From Pseudomonadota bacterium (GTDB lineage Bacteria; Bdellovibrionota_C; UBA2361; SZUA-149; DAOLCO01), in the NCBI GenBank assembly GCA_027487795.1, contig JAIYCX010000015.1:62001-126000 (forward strand): a stretch of 64,000 nt of DNA. The letters are read 5' to 3'. The notes beneath the pieces are model-generated. The model had not been told where the DNA came from and did no database searches. It was given only the letters and a program-made list of their open reading frames with translations. Position numbers and translations under genes: made by a program. Positions 3,156 through 41,741 of this stretch are shown here, piece by piece; position 1 is the stretch's first letter, and each line of letters opens with the position of its first letter.

Positions 3156-3482
3156 ATGTTGGTTTTGTCAAGGAAGAGTGAAGAAGCTATCTCGATTGGC
3201 TCAGTTGCTAAGATTACTTTTGTTATTAAAGGTAATCGTGTGGCTTGTATTGTTTCGGCTCCTTCTTCGGTTAGTATCCGTCGGGGTGAATTGGGAGCTA
3301 CAAGTAGCAGCAACGCTGGTTCTGATATTACAACTTTGGTACTTTCCAGAAAAGATTCGGAAACCATTGTATTTGATGCGTTAGGGATAACGCTAAAAAT
3401 TTGTAAGATCTCAGGAAACAGAGTCAATGTTGGTATTGATGCGCCTCGCGAGATATCGGTTAAAAGACTTGAATTGATCTAA
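3156..3482 (+). CDS. csrA: Tandem-domain CsrA-like RNA-binding regulator
   Basis: This 108-residue protein contains two CsrA domains in one chain: residues 1-46 (MLVLSRK ... SAPSSVSIRRGE) and 59-108 (TLVLSRK ... IDAPREISVKRLELI), joined by a Ser/Ala-rich linker. CsrA is normally ~60 residues and works as a strand-swapped dimer binding GGA motifs in mRNA leaders. Both halves keep the Leu and Arg equivalent to L4 and R44 of E. coli CsrA (L4/R43 and L63/R104). The first half has lost the usual G-x-x-A-P context and looks diverged; the second half is canonical. It lies 1.75 kb upstream of flagellin genes with GGA-rich leaders, so flagellin control is a natural but unproven inference. Confidence 0.85.
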   Translation: MLVLSRKSEEAISIGSVAKITFVIKGNRVACIVSAPSSVSIRRGELGATSSSNAGSDITTLVLSRKDSETIVFDALGITLKICKISGNRVNVGIDAPREISVKRLELI

Positions 3483-4820: not shown

Positions 4821-4975
4821 TATGTAGACGAGGGGAGAAGAATCTTACCCCAGGTGAAACTATGGAAAGTTCTTAACGGAATTTTTAATATGGATGTTTT
4901 ATAAAAGGAGAATAGCTTAGGTTGTAAATGTTGTAGTGGTATTAGGGAGGAAGTTAGAGCCCAAGTTAGTTTGTC

Positions 4976-5044
4976 GTTTGAATTGCTAGTAGTTAGTAAA
5001 TTCATTTTAGGTTTTTCTTTTTGGCAAATTTTTTGTCGGTTGGT
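4976..5044 (+). promoter_or_regulatory. 69-base leader block identical in both flagellin genes
   Basis: These 69 bases are identical to 8844-8912 in the second flagellin leader, while flanking leader sequence differs by substitutions and indels. No reading frame supports a protein. It is probably a structured or protein-binding part of the flagellin mRNA leader, or has been homogenised by gene conversion. Confidence 0.5.
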
Positions 5045-5068
5045 ATTCTGTTGTCTTTGTTTGGGGAT

Positions 5069-5217
5069 AAAAAACAGGAAGGATAGGAGGATAGAAGGGG
5101 GGAGTTTAGTTTGTTTCTTTCGGACACGCAACCACTACCTCTCTCGGCCTCACTTTAAGCACTGCTGCCACTTCTTCTTTTTTAATTTCTCCTATCCTCC
5201 TATCCTTCCTGTTTTTT
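5069..5217 (+). promoter_or_regulatory. GGA-rich inverted-repeat leader of flagellin 1
   Basis: A perfect 26-bp inverted repeat (5069-5094 with 5192-5217) encloses a 97-base loop and ends in eight T, only 8 bases before the GGAGG at 5227-5231. The left arm carries GGA at 5077, 5081, 5086 and 5089, another is at 5101, and the ribosome-binding site itself contains one; GGA is the CsrA core motif. The right arm holds CCTCC, which could pair with GGAGG. It could act as an attenuator (stem plus U-run), as a ribosome-site switch, or as CsrA sites. Confidence 0.55.
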
Positions 5218-5235
5218 TTAATATGGGGAGGTGGT

Positions 5236-7089
5236 ATGTCTAGACTAACTATCAACTCCAACATCCCATCCTTAAACGCCCAGCGTAGTTTATCTAACGC
5301 CACTAAGAAACTTGGCGAAAGTTACACTCGTCTTTCTTCTGGCCTACGAATAAATAAAGCATCAGATGATGCTGCGGGATTGTCTATTTCAGAATCTCTA
5401 AAAGCAGACACTCGTTTATTCAATCAAGGAGTAAGAAATCTAAATGATGGATTAAGTGTTTTAAATATTGCAGATGGTGCTTTGGGTGAATTATCAAATA
5501 TAGTAATTCGACTAAACGAACTTGCAGAACAGAGTGCAAACGGCACTTTAGGAAATAAGCAACGTCTTGCTTTAGATCAGGAAGCACAAAGTTTATCTAA
5601 GGAATATAATAGAATTGCGCGTAGTACTGAGTTTAACGGTAGAAAAATATTTAATGGAGATTATGGTGATTTAAGTTTAGTTGCGGGAGGAGGACGTGAG
5701 ACATTGATAGTAGAGGATTTGGGAGGTGCTGTTGGGAGCGGATCTTTCAAATCAAATATCTCATTTACTACAAGTTTTCAATCTTCTGAAACCATAGCTT
5801 CTGATTTAAATAATGACGGTATGCTAGATTTACTAGTAGCAAAAATAGCAAGCCCGGAGATAAATATATTTTTAGGTAATGGTAACGGTACATTTAAGGC
5901 TGTACAAACATTTGCCTCAACTAGCGATATGCAATCAATGACATTGGGAGATTTTAATGGAGATGGAATTTCTGATATAGCTTCTAGTGATAGTACTACA
6001 AATTTTATAAGTATATTTTTTGGAAATAGTAATGGTAGTTTTAAAACAAGGCTATCTTTTGTTACAAATTCTACTTCGTTATCTGTTGATGCTGAAGATT
6101 TTAATGGCGATGGTATTTTAGACTTAGTTTCTGGAAATACTTCTACTAATGCTCTTAGCGTATATTTAGGAAACGGAAATGGGACTTTCAAAGCTAGAAA
6201 CTCACTTGCTACGGGCCCTAACCCAGGTGATGTCAGTATTGGGGATTTTAATGCAGATGGGATTTCAGACTTAGCTTCTATCGATATATTAGTTGGAAGT
6301 ATTAGCGTATATCTTGGTAATGGTAATGGTAGCTTCAAAAGTAGAACGTCTTACGTTAATTCTGGCGACCCATACTCTCTTCGTATAGGGGATTTTAATG
6401 GAGATAGTATTTTAGATTTAGTAACAGCTGATAATACTTCAAATAGCTTGAGTATTTTTATTGGTAATTCGAATGGTACCTTTAATTCAAGACGCTCCTT
6501 TGGAACAATTGATGGTGTAATAACAGTAGAAGTTGGAGACTTTAATGGTGATGGAGTCTCTGATTTGGTGGCAAATGATTCTACTAGTGGTGGAATAGCT
6601 GTATTTTTAGGTAATGGTGATGCTAGTTTTAAAGCATCACAATCATATGCGTATGATGTAACTTACAATCTCGTAGTCGGAGATTTTAATAATGATGGAG
6701 TCTCTGATTTAGTTAGTGCAGATTTTATGAGTGTTGGTATCTTCATAGGTAATTCAAATACTGGTGTAGCTGCATTACAATCTTTCTCACTTAAAACACA
6801 ATCTGCTGCACGCAATTCAATGTCGTATCTCCGAAAAACTTTAGAACGAATCGGAGAACAGCGCGGTCACATCGGTGGTTTTCAGTCTCGTGTAGAATTT
6901 GCAACTAATAATTTACAAACCAGTGCATTATCATATCAAGAAGCAAATTCAAGAATAACAGATATTGATGTAGCAGAAGAATCGTCACGTCTTGCTGCGT
7001 CCCAGATATTACAACAATCAGCAGCAAGTATTTTAGCGCAGGCTAACCAGCAACCGCAACTAGTTTTGAACCTGCTACGGAACCTATAG
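5236..7089 (+). CDS. Flagellin with seven FG-GAP/VCBS beta-propeller blades (paralogue 1)
   Basis: This 617-residue flagellin starts with canonical D0/D1 (about 1-150: SRLTINSNIPSLNAQRSL, LSSGLRINKASDDAAGL, FNGRKIFNGDYG) and ends with canonical D1/D0 (about 515-617: DIDVAEESSRLAASQILQQ, ILAQANQQP). Between them are seven repeats of ~49 residues, each with a Ca-binding DxNxDGxxD loop, at residues 190, 239, 288, 337, 386 (DFNGDSILD, G to S), 435 and 483, alternating with GNxNGxF turns. Seven such blades match a closed integrin-type propeller, predicted to project from the filament surface where D2/D3 normally sit. The ATG at 5236 has GGAGG 4 bases upstream. Confidence 0.93.
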   Translation: MSRLTINSNIPSLNAQRSLSNATKKLGESYTRLSSGLRINKASDDAAGLSISESLKADTRLFNQGVRNLNDGLSVLNIADGALGELSNIVIRLNELAEQSANGTLGNKQRLALDQEAQSLSKEYNRIARSTEFNGRKIFNGDYGDLSLVAGGGRETLIVEDLGGAVGSGSFKSNISFTTSFQSSETIASDLNNDGMLDLLVAKIASPEINIFLGNGNGTFKAVQTFASTSDMQSMTLGDFNGDGISDIASSDSTTNFISIFFGNSNGSFKTRLSFVTNSTSLSVDAEDFNGDGILDLVSGNTSTNALSVYLGNGNGTFKARNSLATGPNPGDVSIGDFNADGISDLASIDILVGSISVYLGNGNGSFKSRTSYVNSGDPYSLRIGDFNGDSILDLVTADNTSNSLSIFIGNSNGTFNSRRSFGTIDGVITVEVGDFNGDGVSDLVANDSTSGGIAVFLGNGDASFKASQSYAYDVTYNLVVGDFNNDGVSDLVSADFMSVGIFIGNSNTGVAALQSFSLKTQSAARNSMSYLRKTLERIGEQRGHIGGFQSRVEFATNNLQTSALSYQEANSRITDIDVAEESSRLAASQILQQSAASILAQANQQPQLVLNLLRNL

Positions 7090-7269
7090 GGCTCTCCGAT
7101 ACATGGGTGGGGATGCGTAGTTGCGGGCTAGGAGGCCAGCAACCCAGCCTAGTGCTCTCCTTACTACGAGAATTGTAGGCTCGCCTAGCAGGGTTTGGGG
7201 TGGAGCGTTGGGCTGGGGCTAGGAGGCCAGCAGCCGCAATTAGTTCTCAACTTACTACGAGAGCTTTAG
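7048..7269 (+). repeat. Three tandem ~90-bp units carrying alternative flagellin C-terminal tails
   Basis: The last 14 codons of flagellin 1 (7048-7089, QQPQLVLNLLRNL then stop) recur at 7137-7178 (QQPSLVLSLLREL, stop) and 7228-7269 (QQPQLVLNLLREL, stop). Spacing is 89 and 91 bp. Spacers are GC-rich and similar to each other, both ending in GGCTAGGAGGC. Base changes among tails are mostly synonymous. The second copy is out of frame with the gene, and neither has a start codon, so they are silent as they stand. They could be recombination donors or the 3' remnants of lost flagellin genes. Confidence 0.8.
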
Positions 7270-7368
7270 GGTAAACATAGCATAAATTATACCCTTCCAT
7301 TTTTATACAATCGATGTTAATAATAGGAAGGGTTTAATTTGTAGATATTTAATTAAAAGTTCTTATTT

Positions 7369-8550
7369 ATGCCACACTTAAGAGAAAGGTTTATTTTAAA
7401 AACTATAGAAAATAAGCTAAAATTCGCACCAGTCTTTTCCCTTCAGGGGGCGAGGCAAACGGGTAAGAGTTATTTAGCAAGAGATGTAATAGCTAAGAGA
7501 GTAAAAAAATCTATTTATCTTACATTTGATCAAAAATCAGTAAGAACATTTGCAACAAAAAGACCCGATACTTTTTTAGAAAATTATGATGACTACAAAC
7601 CAATAATTATTGATGAAGCACAGAAAGTGCCGGATATTTTTGATGCTATAAAGTTTAGAGTTGATCAAAAACGAGTTTCTGGAAAGTTTTTTATTTTAGG
7701 ATCTACGGAGTTTTCCAAATTAACTAATATTAGAGAGTCTTTAACTGGACGAATGAGTAGAGCAAAGTTATACCCTTTAACAATCAGAGAGAGTTTGTCA
7801 AAAAACTCAAGCTCTAGAACCTCAAGTTTCTATCTACAAAATTCTACTGACGTAACTAGAGCAGAGTTTCTGCGTTATCTTGAAAATGGTGGAATGCCAG
7901 GAATATTTACTATTAAGAATAAAACAGAGAAAAATCTACTTTTGCAAGATTGGATATCGTTAACAGTAGATAGAGATGTTCACACATTTGAAAGAAAAAT
8001 TATTAGCTCTGAATTAATCAGAGAAATATTAGAGCAAATAGCTAAGCTAGAGCAGCCTAACTTAAATAATATTGCAAAGGCAATTAAAATTGATACTAGA
8101 AGAATACGCTCCCATCTAGAAGTACTAGAAACCTTATTTGTTATTAACTCATTACCGGCACATAAATCCGGGACAGGAAAAATATTATATTTTATACTGG
8201 ATTGTGCTCTTGCTGCTGTGCTTGGAGCTAGTTTTGAAAAAATAATGTGGACTGCTGTTTTAAATGAACTCTTAGCAAAGAGGAGTTATTTTGATAATAG
8301 TAATTACAAACTTTTTTATTATCGAAATACAAAAGGCAGCATAGTAAATTTTTTAGAAGAGAATGCTAAGGGTGATATTAGTTTACTAAAAATTATTACT
8401 GAAGAAAAATATGATGAGAGAAATCTGGAAATATTATCAGCTTACCAAAAAAAAGTAACAGGTAAGGTTAGTTTATACGCAATTGCACCGTTTGAAAGTT
8501 TAGGTAGTAAGGAACTTGTGAAAATTTATCCTTGGGAAGCTATTGCATAG
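7369..8550 (+). CDS. AAA_14/DUF4143 ATP-binding protein
   Basis: A 393-residue P-loop ATPase of the AAA_14 (PF13173) plus DUF4143 (PF13635) type. Walker A GARQTGKS is near residues 27-34 and Walker B PIIIDEAQKVP near 78-88, then GSTEFSK and LTGRMSRAKLYPLTIRE, which are characteristic of the family. A C-terminal part holds the winged-helix-like and nuclease-fold-like DUF4143 region. These proteins are widespread, mobile and of unknown cellular role. It sits alone between the two flagellin genes, each of which has its own promoter, so a flagellar function is not implied. No strong ribosome-binding site is visible before the ATG. Confidence 0.85.
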   Translation: MPHLRERFILKTIENKLKFAPVFSLQGARQTGKSYLARDVIAKRVKKSIYLTFDQKSVRTFATKRPDTFLENYDDYKPIIIDEAQKVPDIFDAIKFRVDQKRVSGKFFILGSTEFSKLTNIRESLTGRMSRAKLYPLTIRESLSKNSSSRTSSFYLQNSTDVTRAEFLRYLENGGMPGIFTIKNKTEKNLLLQDWISLTVDRDVHTFERKIISSELIREILEQIAKLEQPNLNNIAKAIKIDTRRIRSHLEVLETLFVINSLPAHKSGTGKILYFILDCALAAVLGASFEKIMWTAVLNELLAKRSYFDNSNYKLFYYRNTKGSIVNFLEENAKGDISLLKIITEEKYDERNLEILSAYQKKVTGKVSLYAIAPFESLGSKELVKIYPWEAIA

Positions 8551-8621
8551 TATGAACAAATTCCTACAGTAACCCCTTATTTTTATTGATTAAATATTAA
8601 TCAATAAATCCCTAAAACTAC

Positions 8622-8649
8622 TTAAGTTATTGTAATGATTCAACGATAA
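8622..8649 (+). promoter_or_regulatory. Sigma-28-like promoter of flagellin 2
   Basis: TTAAGTTA at 8622-8629 and AACGATAA at 8642-8649, again 12 bases apart; the same block as at 4793-4820 with a slightly better -35 match. The start codon lies about 750 bases downstream because of leader length plus an inserted element. Confidence 0.55.
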
Positions 8650-8843
8650 TATGTAGACGTAGGGGGAAGTATACTCTGCGTGAAGGAAGTTTCTGCAAGG
8701 TTTCAAGGAGTATAGAAATCTTTGTAATACGGATGTTTTATACAAGGAGATTGGCTTAGGTTAGTTTTGTTGTGGTGGTAAAAATACTAGAAGTAAAATT
8801 TTAGTTGTGCGGTGAGGATGTTTCTTGCCAAAGTTGGTTTGTA

Positions 8844-8912
8844 GTTTGAATTGCTAGTAGTTAGTAAATTCATTTTAGGTTTTTCTTTTTGGCAAATTTT
8901 TTGTCGGTTGGT
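8844..8912 (+). promoter_or_regulatory. Second copy of the invariant 69-base flagellin leader block
   Basis: Identical over 69 bases to 4976-5044. The leader on either side (for example 8656-8840 against 4827-4975) is clearly diverged, which makes this block stand out. Confidence 0.5.
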
Positions 8913-8942
8913 TAAGTGTTGTCTTTGTTTGGGGAGAAAAAG

Positions 8943-9131
8943 CAGGAAGGTTAGGAGGATAGAAGGGGGGGAGTTTAGTTTGTTTCGTTTGGAAGAAGTG
9001 GCAGCAGTGCTTAAAGCGATCAGAGACACAAACATGGCCTGCCACTCGCTCTGGAACATACCCCCTCCCTCACTTTAAGCACTGCTGCCACTTCTTCTTT
9101 TTTAATTTCTCCTATCCTCCTATCCTTCCTG
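8943..9131 (+). promoter_or_regulatory. Nested inverted repeats in the flagellin 2 leader
   Basis: The outer arms 8943-8962 and 9112-9131 (20 bp, one mismatch) correspond to the 26-bp repeat of flagellin 1 and again carry GGA motifs (8945, 8954, 8957, with another at 8970). Inside is a perfect 25-bp inverted repeat, 8992-9016 with 9073-9097, around a 56-base loop. In flagellin 1 only the right inner arm survives (5153-5177). A GGGGAGGAGG ribosome-binding site follows at 9145-9154 but is separated from the start codon by the palindromic element. Confidence 0.6.
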
Positions 9132-9154
9132 TTTTTTTTAATATGGGGAGGAGG

Positions 9155-9407
9155 TTCTGCTCCATCCCAACAACTCAAAGAGCCCTCCGCCGAGCTATGC
9201 AGAATTTATTCTGCGAAGCCCGGAGTGGTGTGGCAAAGGGGAGGGCGTCCTGCTTCGTCCACGCAAAAACGATTACGCAGGATTTGCTTACTTAGATCAG
9301 AACCTGTTCTGCTACGTCCCAACAACTCAAAAACCCCTCCACCTAACTATGCAGAATTTATTCTGCGTAGCCCGGGGTGGTGTGGCAAAGGGGAGGGCGT
9401 AGCAGAA
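9155..9407. repeat. Two GC-rich palindromic elements inserted between RBS and ATG of flagellin 2
   Basis: Copy B spans 9306-9407 with perfect 10-bp ends TTCTGCTACG / CGTAGCAGAA and a central hairpin around GCAGAATTTATTCTGC. Copy A (9155 to about 9260) has the same order but an imperfect right end. A 40-odd-base linker separates them. Compared with flagellin 1, where the ATG follows 4 bases after GGAGG, the pair interrupts the leader precisely at this point; the last base of copy B is the A of the ATG. Copy B carries GGAGG at 9392-9396, 10 bases before the ATG, which can replace the displaced site. Confidence 0.75.
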
Positions 9408-11263
9408 TGTCTAGACTAACAATTAACTCCAACATCCCGTCCCTAAACGCTCAGCGCAGTTTAGCAAATGCTACAAAGAAACTTGGCGATAGCTACACTC
9501 GTCTTTCTTCAGGCCTGCGCATTAACAAAGCCTCAGACGATGCAGCGGGGTTATCAATCTCTGAATCTCTAAAAGCTGACACACGTTTGTTTTACCAAGG
9601 AGTTCGAAACCTAAATGATGGAGTAAGTTTATTAAACATTGCAGATGGTGCTTTAAATGAATTAACTAATATCGTTACAAGATTATCCGAATTAGCAACT
9701 CAAAGCGCAAATGGAACTTTTAGTAACAAGCAAAGACTTGCACTTGATCAAGAAGCGCAGAGTTTATCAAAAGAATATAATAGAATTGCGCGTACAACAT
9801 CCTTTAATGGGCGAAATTTATTTGATGGCGATTTTGGATTATTAAGTCTAGCAGCAGGAGGTGGAAGTGAAAGCTTAATTAGTAGCGGACTTGGAGGTAG
9901 TATCGGTGATGGGACTTTTCAAGCTAGGATAAGTTACGAAACTGTAATAGCTTCGCAATCAATATTATTAGATGATTTTAATGGAGATGGGATAAAAGAT
10001 TTGGTGACAGCAGGTACAAATAGTATTGGTCTAATGATAGGTAATGGAGATGGAAGTTTTAAAACCAACAATACTTTTACAGCTTTAAATTCTGGTACTA
10101 TTGAAGCTGGTGATATTAATGGAGATGGCTTTCTTGATATTGTATCGTCTTTATCAGGATCAAATAGATCTTTTTCATTTTTTTTAGGTAACGGTAATGG
10201 GAGTTTTAAAGCTGAAGTTAGCATAAGGGGACCTAACGATGGAGGGGTCGATATCGAACTCGCTGATTTTAATAATGATGGAAAATTAGATATCTTAGAA
10301 TCCGGTACGACAGGTAATGCTACTGCGACTTTATACCTAGGTAATGGAAATGCAACATTTCAAAGAGGTAACGGTATCGGTAGTGCAGGAGGATCAAATG
10401 GTCGAAAGGTGACAGTAGGAGATTTTAATAATGACGGTATTTTGGATATTATTAATACTCAACAAAATTTTATTGATACATACATGGGTAGAGGAGATGG
10501 TACGTTTACCCGTATTAGCAGCTTTGCTGTCGCATCAAATTCAAATTTTTCAGATACTATATTATCAGACATAAACGATGATGGTATACAGGATTTAGTA
10601 TTTGCAAGTAGTGCCTCGATTGCTATAGCACTAGGTAATAATAACGGAACATTTAGAGTTGTTAATAATTTTTCTAATAGTGGAAATACTTTTGGATTAA
10701 ATATTGGTGATTTCAACGGAGATGGAAAAAAGGATATTGTAGCTTCTGCAAACGGCGGCCCTTTAAATATTCTCATAGGTAACGGTGATGGAAGTTTTTT
10801 ACAAAGAGTATCTTATGCTACCACAACTTCGCCGACTAATGCCATATTAGAAGATTTCAACAAAGATGGCGTTTTAGATTTGCTTCATGGGGATAACTTT
10901 GGTTTTATAAGTGTTTTGTTTGCAAATTCTAATAATGGTATTGGCTCTCTCCAATCATTTTCTTTAAAAACCAAAGCAGATTCTTTGGATGCTATGGATT
11001 ATTTTGAATTTTCTTTGTCAAATCTGTCTAAACAACGCGGTCAGATCGGGGCATTTCAATCTAGATTAGATGTCGCAACTAGTACGCTTCAAACTAGTTC
11101 ACTAAATTATCAAGAAGCAAATAGTAGAATAACAGATATTGACGTAGCAGAAGAATCATCACGCCTTGCTGCGACCCAAATACTACAACAATCTGCCGCA
11201 AGTATTCTAGCTCAAGCTAACCAGCAGCCAAGATTAGTTCTCTCATTGTTGGGGGATTTATGA
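9407..11263 (+). CDS. Flagellin with seven FG-GAP/VCBS beta-propeller blades (paralogue 2)
   Basis: This 618-residue paralogue of the gene at 5236 has nearly the same first ~145 and last ~90 residues but a strongly diverged centre. Its seven Ca-loop motifs start at residues 190 (DFNGDGIKD), 236 (DINGDGFLD), 287, 339, 388 (DINDDGIQD), 435 and 483, again alternating with GNGxGxF turns, so the seven-blade count is preserved. The C-terminus reads NQQPRLVLSLLGDL. The ATG at 9407 is chosen because MSRLTINSN aligns with flagellin 1; an in-frame GTG at 9377 would add ten residues read from the palindromic element. Expression may be altered by that insertion. Confidence 0.92.
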   Translation: MSRLTINSNIPSLNAQRSLANATKKLGDSYTRLSSGLRINKASDDAAGLSISESLKADTRLFYQGVRNLNDGVSLLNIADGALNELTNIVTRLSELATQSANGTFSNKQRLALDQEAQSLSKEYNRIARTTSFNGRNLFDGDFGLLSLAAGGGSESLISSGLGGSIGDGTFQARISYETVIASQSILLDDFNGDGIKDLVTAGTNSIGLMIGNGDGSFKTNNTFTALNSGTIEAGDINGDGFLDIVSSLSGSNRSFSFFLGNGNGSFKAEVSIRGPNDGGVDIELADFNNDGKLDILESGTTGNATATLYLGNGNATFQRGNGIGSAGGSNGRKVTVGDFNNDGILDIINTQQNFIDTYMGRGDGTFTRISSFAVASNSNFSDTILSDINDDGIQDLVFASSASIAIALGNNNGTFRVVNNFSNSGNTFGLNIGDFNGDGKKDIVASANGGPLNILIGNGDGSFLQRVSYATTTSPTNAILEDFNKDGVLDLLHGDNFGFISVLFANSNNGIGSLQSFSLKTKADSLDAMDYFEFSLSNLSKQRGQIGAFQSRLDVATSTLQTSSLNYQEANSRITDIDVAEESSRLAATQILQQSAASILAQANQQPRLVLSLLGDL

Positions 11264-11286
11264 TGATGGTTTTTTCCAAAATCAAA

Positions 11287-12153
11287 CTACTTCTGACACT
11301 TCTCACAATAAAAAGTACTTCTACTACCTTGTGTAATCTTTAAAATTAAACTTTCACACTTCCTGCACTTTTCACCTTCTCTACTATATACATAAAGTTC
11401 ATTCTGGTATTGCCCTGTTTCACCGTTCGAACTTTGAAAATCTGAAAAGGTTGTTCCGCCTTTTTCTATGGCTTTAGTTAGTACTTGTTTTATGTAACGA
11501 CAAACTAAGTTAGTTTCATTCTTACTTAAACTACTCCACGCTCTTTCAGGATGTATTTTTGCAAGAAATAAAATCTCAGAGGCGTAGATATTACCAATAC
11601 CAACAATTCTAGCTTGATTTAAAAGGAAGGATTTTACATTTTGTTTTATTTTAGAAGTGTTTTGATGTAGGTAAGAATTTAAGTTCTCATCAAGAGCATC
11701 AATAGAGTTAATCGCTAACTCTGGTTTTTTATCAAAATATTCCACAGTTCCAAATCTTCTAGGATCAAAGAAATAGAGTGTGCCGCCTTTGCAATTTATT
11801 AAAAACCTGACATGTTTATATTTATTATCTTGAGTGAGTCTAATAACTTTGTGTTCAAGATAAGCTTCTCCTTTTTGTATCTCGTCTATTAGTGAATGTT
11901 GTTTGGAGTTTTTTACAAATATTAGCCTACCTGTCATTCTTAGGTGAATAAGTAGGTATAAGTTATCTACTTTAATTAAAACTTGTTTCCCTAGCCTAGT
12001 AACAAGGGATATTTTTTTATTTTCTAGTGAGGATAAATGATGATTTAGTGATTTAAGTTTAGGGTCATAGATAATAATCTTATTTATGACCCTGGATTTT
12101 AAATCCTTTTGTAAGCCTCTACAGACTGTTTCTACTTCTGGTAGCTCTGGCAT
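11287..12153 (-). CDS. mutM: Formamidopyrimidine-DNA glycosylase
   Basis: A 288-residue Fpg/MutM. The mature N-terminus PELPEVE supplies the catalytic Pro and Glu, with LGKQVLIKV and HLRMTGRL near residues 53-75 and the NIYASEILF helix-two-turn-helix segment. A C-terminal zinc finger, CRKCESL...FYCEKC, is at about residues 264-286. It excises oxidised purines such as 8-oxoguanine. It is tail-to-tail with flagellin 2, with only 23 bases between stops. Confidence 0.96.
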   Translation of the reverse strand: MPELPEVETVCRGLQKDLKSRVINKIIIYDPKLKSLNHHLSSLENKKISLVTRLGKQVLIKVDNLYLLIHLRMTGRLIFVKNSKQHSLIDEIQKGEAYLEHKVIRLTQDNKYKHVRFLINCKGGTLYFFDPRRFGTVEYFDKKPELAINSIDALDENLNSYLHQNTSKIKQNVKSFLLNQARIVGIGNIYASEILFLAKIHPERAWSSLSKNETNLVCRYIKQVLTKAIEKGGTTFSDFQSSNGETGQYQNELYVYSREGEKCRKCESLILKITQGSRSTFYCEKCQK

Positions 12154-41589: not shown

Positions 41590-41741
41590 TCTGCGTCGTC
41601 CCAACAAACCAAAGCCCCTCCGCCGGACTATGCAGAATTCATTCTGCGTCGTCCCAACAAACCAAAGCCCCTCCGCCGGACTATGCAGAATTCATTCTGC
41701 GTAGCCGGGGGTGGAGTAGTGGGAGGATGGGCGAAGCAGAA
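41590..41741. repeat. GC-rich palindromic element with internal 53-bp tandem duplication
   Basis: The left half (from TCTGCGTCGTCCC) is present twice in tandem with a period of 53 bp (41590 and 41643). The central hairpin CTATGCAGAAT/ATTCTGCGTAG and the right arm, ending in GCGAAGCAGAA at 41741, follow. Order and end sequences match the elements at 9155-9407 and 63881-63980. It lies ~70 bp upstream of the thiolase gene and stands out by its high GC. Confidence 0.7.

Follow-up and report, generated by a model that had tools for sequence, protein, structure and literature searches.

Why should a flagellin gene be followed, behind its own stop codon, by two more copies of its last codons? The question is raised by a 64,000-nucleotide stretch of bacterial DNA (the window), which belongs to a 3.2-Mb genome in 71 contigs. 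The host is an uncultured bacterium; when its proteins were searched, Bdellovibrionales and further delta-type MAGs came out as the best named relatives, at 35-45% identity. The original prediction interpreted the copies as silent cassettes, kept under selection and available for recombination into the gene. Exchange of tails among the paralogs in the past is supported by the analysis presented here. The extra tails themselves are most likely stranded, decaying 3' ends and not maintained silent cassettes.

Layout of the tail repeat behind flagellin 1

Three tails spaced at about 90 bp, each closed by TAG, had been described at flagellin 1 (fla1). Sequence and translation agree with this description, and its coordinates and translations are correct (Table 1). 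The "last 14 codons" are correct with the stop counted (13 residues and the stop). The C-terminus of fla1 thus recurs twice 3' of the stop codon, with start-to-start spacings of 89 and 91 bp. The units of the two orphan tails have 55 nt in common at 78% identity. Both spacers are 63-69% G+C, as against 35% for the window, and AT-rich sequence follows orphan tail 2. When the 236-bp stretch was searched against its own 3.2-Mb genome, only flagellin 3' ends matched at E<1e-3, so the repeat is not a chance resemblance.

Table 1. Coordinates of the fla1 tail repeat, its potential hairpin arms and the neighbouring flagellin gene in the window
Feature	Position	Strand	Description	Basis
Flagellin 1 (fla1)	5236..7089	+	617 aa; Flagellin_N, FG-GAP repeats, Flagellin_C	Pfam PF00669, PF13517, PF00700
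Hairpin 5' arm, unit 1	7047..7062	+	coding	
fla1 working tail	7048..7089	+	QQPQLVLNLLRNL + TAG; A type	translation
Spacer 1	7090..7135	+	GC-rich, 46 nt, 63% G+C; terminates in GGGCTAGGAGG	
Hairpin 3' arm, unit 1	7118..7132	+	in spacer 1	
Hairpin 5' arm, unit 2	7136..7151	+	in orphan tail 1	
Orphan tail 1	7137..7178	+	QQPSLVLSLLREL + TAG; S type; nearest working tail C49	
Spacer 2	7179..7226	+	GC-rich, 48 nt, 69% G+C	
Hairpin 3' arm, unit 2	7209..7223	+	in spacer 2	
Orphan tail 2	7228..7269	+	QQPQLVLNLLREL + TAG; nearest working tail C46	
Flagellin 2 (fla2)	9407..11263	+	B-type tail QQPRLVLSLLGDL; without spacer or orphan	

The FG-GAP repeats of fla1 sit between its N- and C-terminal flagellin domains. 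They form the variable middle of both fla1 and fla2, and the same kind is present in related families. Many FG-GAP stretches resembling this insert are also found in a 4585-residue open frame on contig C60 (about 68600-81200). An AAA_14/DUF4143 ATPase gene (window 7369-8550) comes directly behind the orphan tails, and by eye C3 and C22 may be followed by genes of similar appearance. Near the flagellin genes a 108-aa protein (window 3156-3482) contains two CsrA stretches in tandem. Inverted repeats of about 30 bp (AAAACAGGAAGGATAGGAGGATAG ... CTATCCTCCTATCCTTCCTGTTTTTT; window 5071-5222 and 8945-9139) occur in flagellin leaders and behind B-type tails. They are GGA-rich with a T run and have 87 matches genome-wide, some away from flagellins; terminator- or CsrA-like roles are conceivable. 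A 53-bp G+C-rich tandem repeat (window 41590-41702, also 9150-9410) has similar sequence in the fla2 leader. Rfam gave no match at gathering score over window positions 4900-11400.

Orphan tails and spacers at other flagellin loci

In this genome 15 flagellin ends belong to the tail family, and there are shorter, ordinary flagellins besides. The working tail types are A (QQPQLVL[NS]LLRDL and near variants), S (QQPSLVLSLLRDL) and B (QQPRLVL[SA]LLGDL). Some flagellins are in tandem (fla1 and fla2 in the window, two on C71). The search for further loci with orphan tails, proposed in the original prediction, found them behind the stop of three other paralogs: C34 (QQTRLVLLLLGDL), C49 (KQPQLVLNLLRDL, without a stop) and C17 (QQPRLVLSLLRDL). 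A fifth paralog, C3, has the GC-rich spacer and no orphan tail. All orphan tails begin at the same base. In searches of the genome the whole spacer was found only after flagellin tails, in the same place at five loci. Pattern searches with the two spacer arms returned these orphan and spacer loci as close matches; the left arm also matches 12 nt behind C7, perhaps by chance.

The arrangements are related between loci. C17 and C34 have an entire A-spacer-B block in common (86% over 150 bp), and C3, with its spacer and no orphan, could represent the donor state of tail plus spacer. The orphan 1-spacer 2-orphan 2 segment of fla1 matches the working tail-spacer-orphan segment of C49 at 82%, and spacer 2 is 95% identical to the C49 spacer in ungapped columns. 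The third tail of fla1 is nearest to C46, an A type without a spacer. The simplest reading is a resident end in front of which two additions would have been placed later.

Outside this genome the arrangement was not recovered. A scan for a second tail within 500 bp, which picks up all five orphans in the genome itself, gave no convincing case at 146 flagellin 3' ends of other genomes, a count that includes some overlapping loci. In DNA searches the spacer turned up in none of 15 genomes from the order or 46 from the class; one genome (G015) gave a single 19-bp match, outside the spacer. Literature searches returned no match for orphan flagellin tails.

Past exchange of tails and the present state of the orphans

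Some genes have a tail type that does not fit the body, and C17 is the clearest of these. Its body is closest to C28, with identities of 0.80 in the N-terminal part and 0.82 in the C-terminal part. The tail of C28 is of B type, and the working tail of C17 is of A type (0.92 to C46, 0.54 to C28). Body and gene end therefore have different closest paralogs. The orphan of C17 and the flank and repeat downstream are of B type, as in the relatives of the body; the discordant tail, with a spacer of about 46 bp, precedes this tail. In C17 the orphan is thus of the type of the body's relatives and the working tail is the newcomer, which is the reverse of a stored alternative.

A max-chi2 mosaic test of C17, in which C28 was combined in turn with each of six A-tail genes as the parental pair, gave values of 47-69 (0/2000 permutations in each case); the test was confined to C17, which was picked as the clearest case, and the values are uncorrected for that choice. 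The break lies upstream of CCAGCA, at a distance of 20-45 codons from the stop. This position indicates an A-type gene as the source of the tail together with some 6 to 30 of the preceding codons. A break that reaches upstream argues for homologous exchange and not for a crossover fixed at CCAGCA. Recombination had been proposed as able to swap tails, and for the past the discordance and mosaic break in C17 bear this out.

Are the orphans maintained? The original prediction held that differences among the copies are mostly synonymous. This is correct by count, since between the orphans and their nearest working tails 12 codons differ synonymously and 7 non-synonymously, the missing stop being one of the 7. 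However, working tails show 39 synonymous versus 10 non-synonymous differences, against a neutral single-step expectation of 1 to 3, and the non-synonymous share in orphans is about double theirs. Residues unique to one tail number 1.2 per orphan and 0.27 per working tail (permutation p=0.008), a comparison of small numbers in which the tails are related to each other. Signs of decay include the C49 orphan without a stop and a P to T change in the C34 orphan. These counts and the excess of unique residues suggest that the orphans had a working past and are under weaker constraint now. Their synonymous differences are explained by that long past as working gene ends.

Explanations and comparable systems

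The finding of more unusual residues than in working tails, together with one lost stop, speaks against tails kept as silent cassettes. That the orphans are a reserve kept up so that recombination can renew the expressed C-terminus is in our judgement very unlikely. The direct repeats of about 91 bp, with their common CCAGCA and GGCTAGGAGG blocks, could recombine, and tails did move between genes in the past; but there are only one or two orphans per locus, the alternatives they offer are conservative and the arrangement was not found in the relatives searched. A different account takes each orphan as what deletion of the body left of a full tandem flagellin gene, with the old intergenic region surviving as the spacer; no exchange of tails would have been involved. 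Tandem flagellins do exist, the spacers end in AGGAGG, which resembles a ribosome site, and C34, with an A-clade body, a B-type orphan and a B-type flank, fits the fusion of two neighbours. Deletion by itself, however, leaves the C17 mosaic and the identical orphan starts unexplained, and no intact gene with such a leader was found in the genome. We consider this account unlikely. The spacer as the leader of a lost flagellin gene was rejected, there being no significant match to flagellin leaders beyond the other spacers and the C34/C7 arm match.

Spacers tend to end in sequence that can pair with the first bases of their own tails. The energy of such own pairing is -19.8 kcal/mol for the A type (fla1, C17) and -30.5 kcal/mol for the S type (orphan 1). 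Cross-pairing gives -13.5 to -16.4 kcal/mol for A tails (fla1, C17) with the orphan 1 spacer and -12.3 to -15.0 kcal/mol for the S tail with A spacers. Against shuffled spacers the p values are 0.011 (fla1), 0.03 (C17), 0.001 (orphan 1), 0.06 (C3), 0.12 (C49) and 0.37 (C34). When A and S units are aligned, the two S rows share three adjacent compensated pairs and one of these rows has a fourth, the C49 spacer being imperfectly aligned. This covariation counts once, because it is essentially one evolutionary change; it may reflect selection on a hairpin, template switching at a quasipalindrome, or chance where the sequence is rich in G. A gapped-alignment test of the complementarity was weak (p 0.04-0.47), and whole-unit folding (z +0.9 to -2.1) is unconvincing alone.

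Three readings build on this complementarity. Tail codons and spacer might form a 3' mRNA hairpin with a role in stability or regulation, the orphans being duplications of that element. Compensated pairs between A- and S-type units and own pairing that is mostly stronger than swapped pairing are in its favour, yet folding energies of whole units are ordinary, the pairing in C34 does not exceed that of shuffled sequence, the stem is missing from paralogs whose 3' ends differ, and template switching could yield the same covariation; we find it scarcely probable. Tail plus spacer might instead be a mobile hairpin, with a coding 5' arm and a 3' arm behind the stop, by which a recombinase or repair process pastes a new C-terminus before the old one with the frame kept. 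This is a very doubtful proposal; if true, exchange driven by the hairpin would be a new way of replacing a protein's C-terminus. In its integron-like or otherwise hairpin-dependent cassette form, tail, stop and spacer would fold as single-stranded DNA and a recombinase would insert the unit before resident tails. The units do end roughly at the feet of the hairpin, the arms covary, and the genome has both a true integron integrase (TIGR02249, 437.8 bits against a cut-off of 265; contig C66) and six Y1 transposase-like matches. However, RYYYAAC is in no spacer and GTTRRRY in one only, internally and away from the junction; the visible attC-like sites of the genome are, by eye on C66, of the ordinary kind; the C17 break lies upstream of the junction; no spacer-like repeat is near the Y1 genes, save one single-mismatch arm match; and the units are never found outside flagellins. 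This form is highly improbable.

Known element classes were rejected as well. An integron cassette proper was set aside because, with IntI present, the spacers are without paired attC R'' (RYYYAAC) and R' (GTTRRRY) boxes. The integrase on C66 (L201:1321-2409) has a divergent short cassette array of its own with ordinary attC-like sites. For a diversity-generating retroelement, the only reverse transcriptase found (RVT_1) has a group II intron maturase domain. REP/RAYT palindromes were also discarded: Y1 proteins are present, and the spacer occurs only after flagellin tails, with one single-mismatch arm match near Y1.

The extra tails are probably scars of recombination within a large mosaic flagellin family. 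The conserved CCAGCA would be the point at which a 3' end and its flank were placed before, or fused with, a 3' end already resident. Gene conversion could have done this by switching back at that short stretch of homology; alternatively, a neighbouring flagellin gene could have lost its body by deletion. From there the tail-spacer-tail arrangement would have been spread among the paralogs, and re-sorted, by ordinary homologous recombination. Lying behind stop codons and lacking a start codon, the stranded tails would decay, and fla1 would record two rounds of scar formation. C34 breaks the rule that the orphan is the gene's own former tail; its mismatch of body and orphan calls for gene fusion by deletion or replacement of the whole body. 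Given this exception, the first event may have been a deletion between neighbours, with later spread by exchange. The identical start base of the orphans and the complementarity of spacer to own tail start are not predicted by a plain scar, and no source for the spacer was found. The assembly is a draft with several flagellin loci at contig ends, and chimeric assembly is possible at C17, C34 or C49; fla1 is deep inside its contig.

Read as recombination scars, the tails matter in two respects. An old gene end kept beside the new one is a readable record of reshuffling in a very large flagellin family, and the retention of both ends sometimes reveals in which direction the exchange went. Orphan gene ends can also mimic silent-cassette systems, which is a warning.

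Multiple flagellins are known from the related group, where Bdellovibrio has the paralog set fliC1-6 (PMC2791853). The paralogs described here are more numerous and many carry FG-GAP repeats. Silent-cassette antigenic variation operates at pilS of Neisseria. It is also the function of vls in Borrelia (PMC2632889). The orphan tails are like both in being start-less partial copies of a surface-protein gene beside the expressed copy. They differ in comprising only 13 residues of the C-terminal helix, in one or two decaying copies per locus, with no sign of directed conversion. Integron cassettes (IntI/attC) are similar as short units with a palindrome-like end placed before an older one, in a host that has IntI; here, however, paired R''/R' boxes are missing from the unit ends, the units contain no gene of their own, and there is no array outside flagellins. 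In Campylobacter, ectopic gene conversion and recombination occur among the paralogous flagellin genes flaA and flaB. The likeness lies in homologous exchange of paralogs in conserved terminal coding regions, which yields mosaic genes. A difference from flaA and flaB is that several of the loci described here also retain stranded additional 3' ends beyond the stop codon, together with a distinctive spacer.
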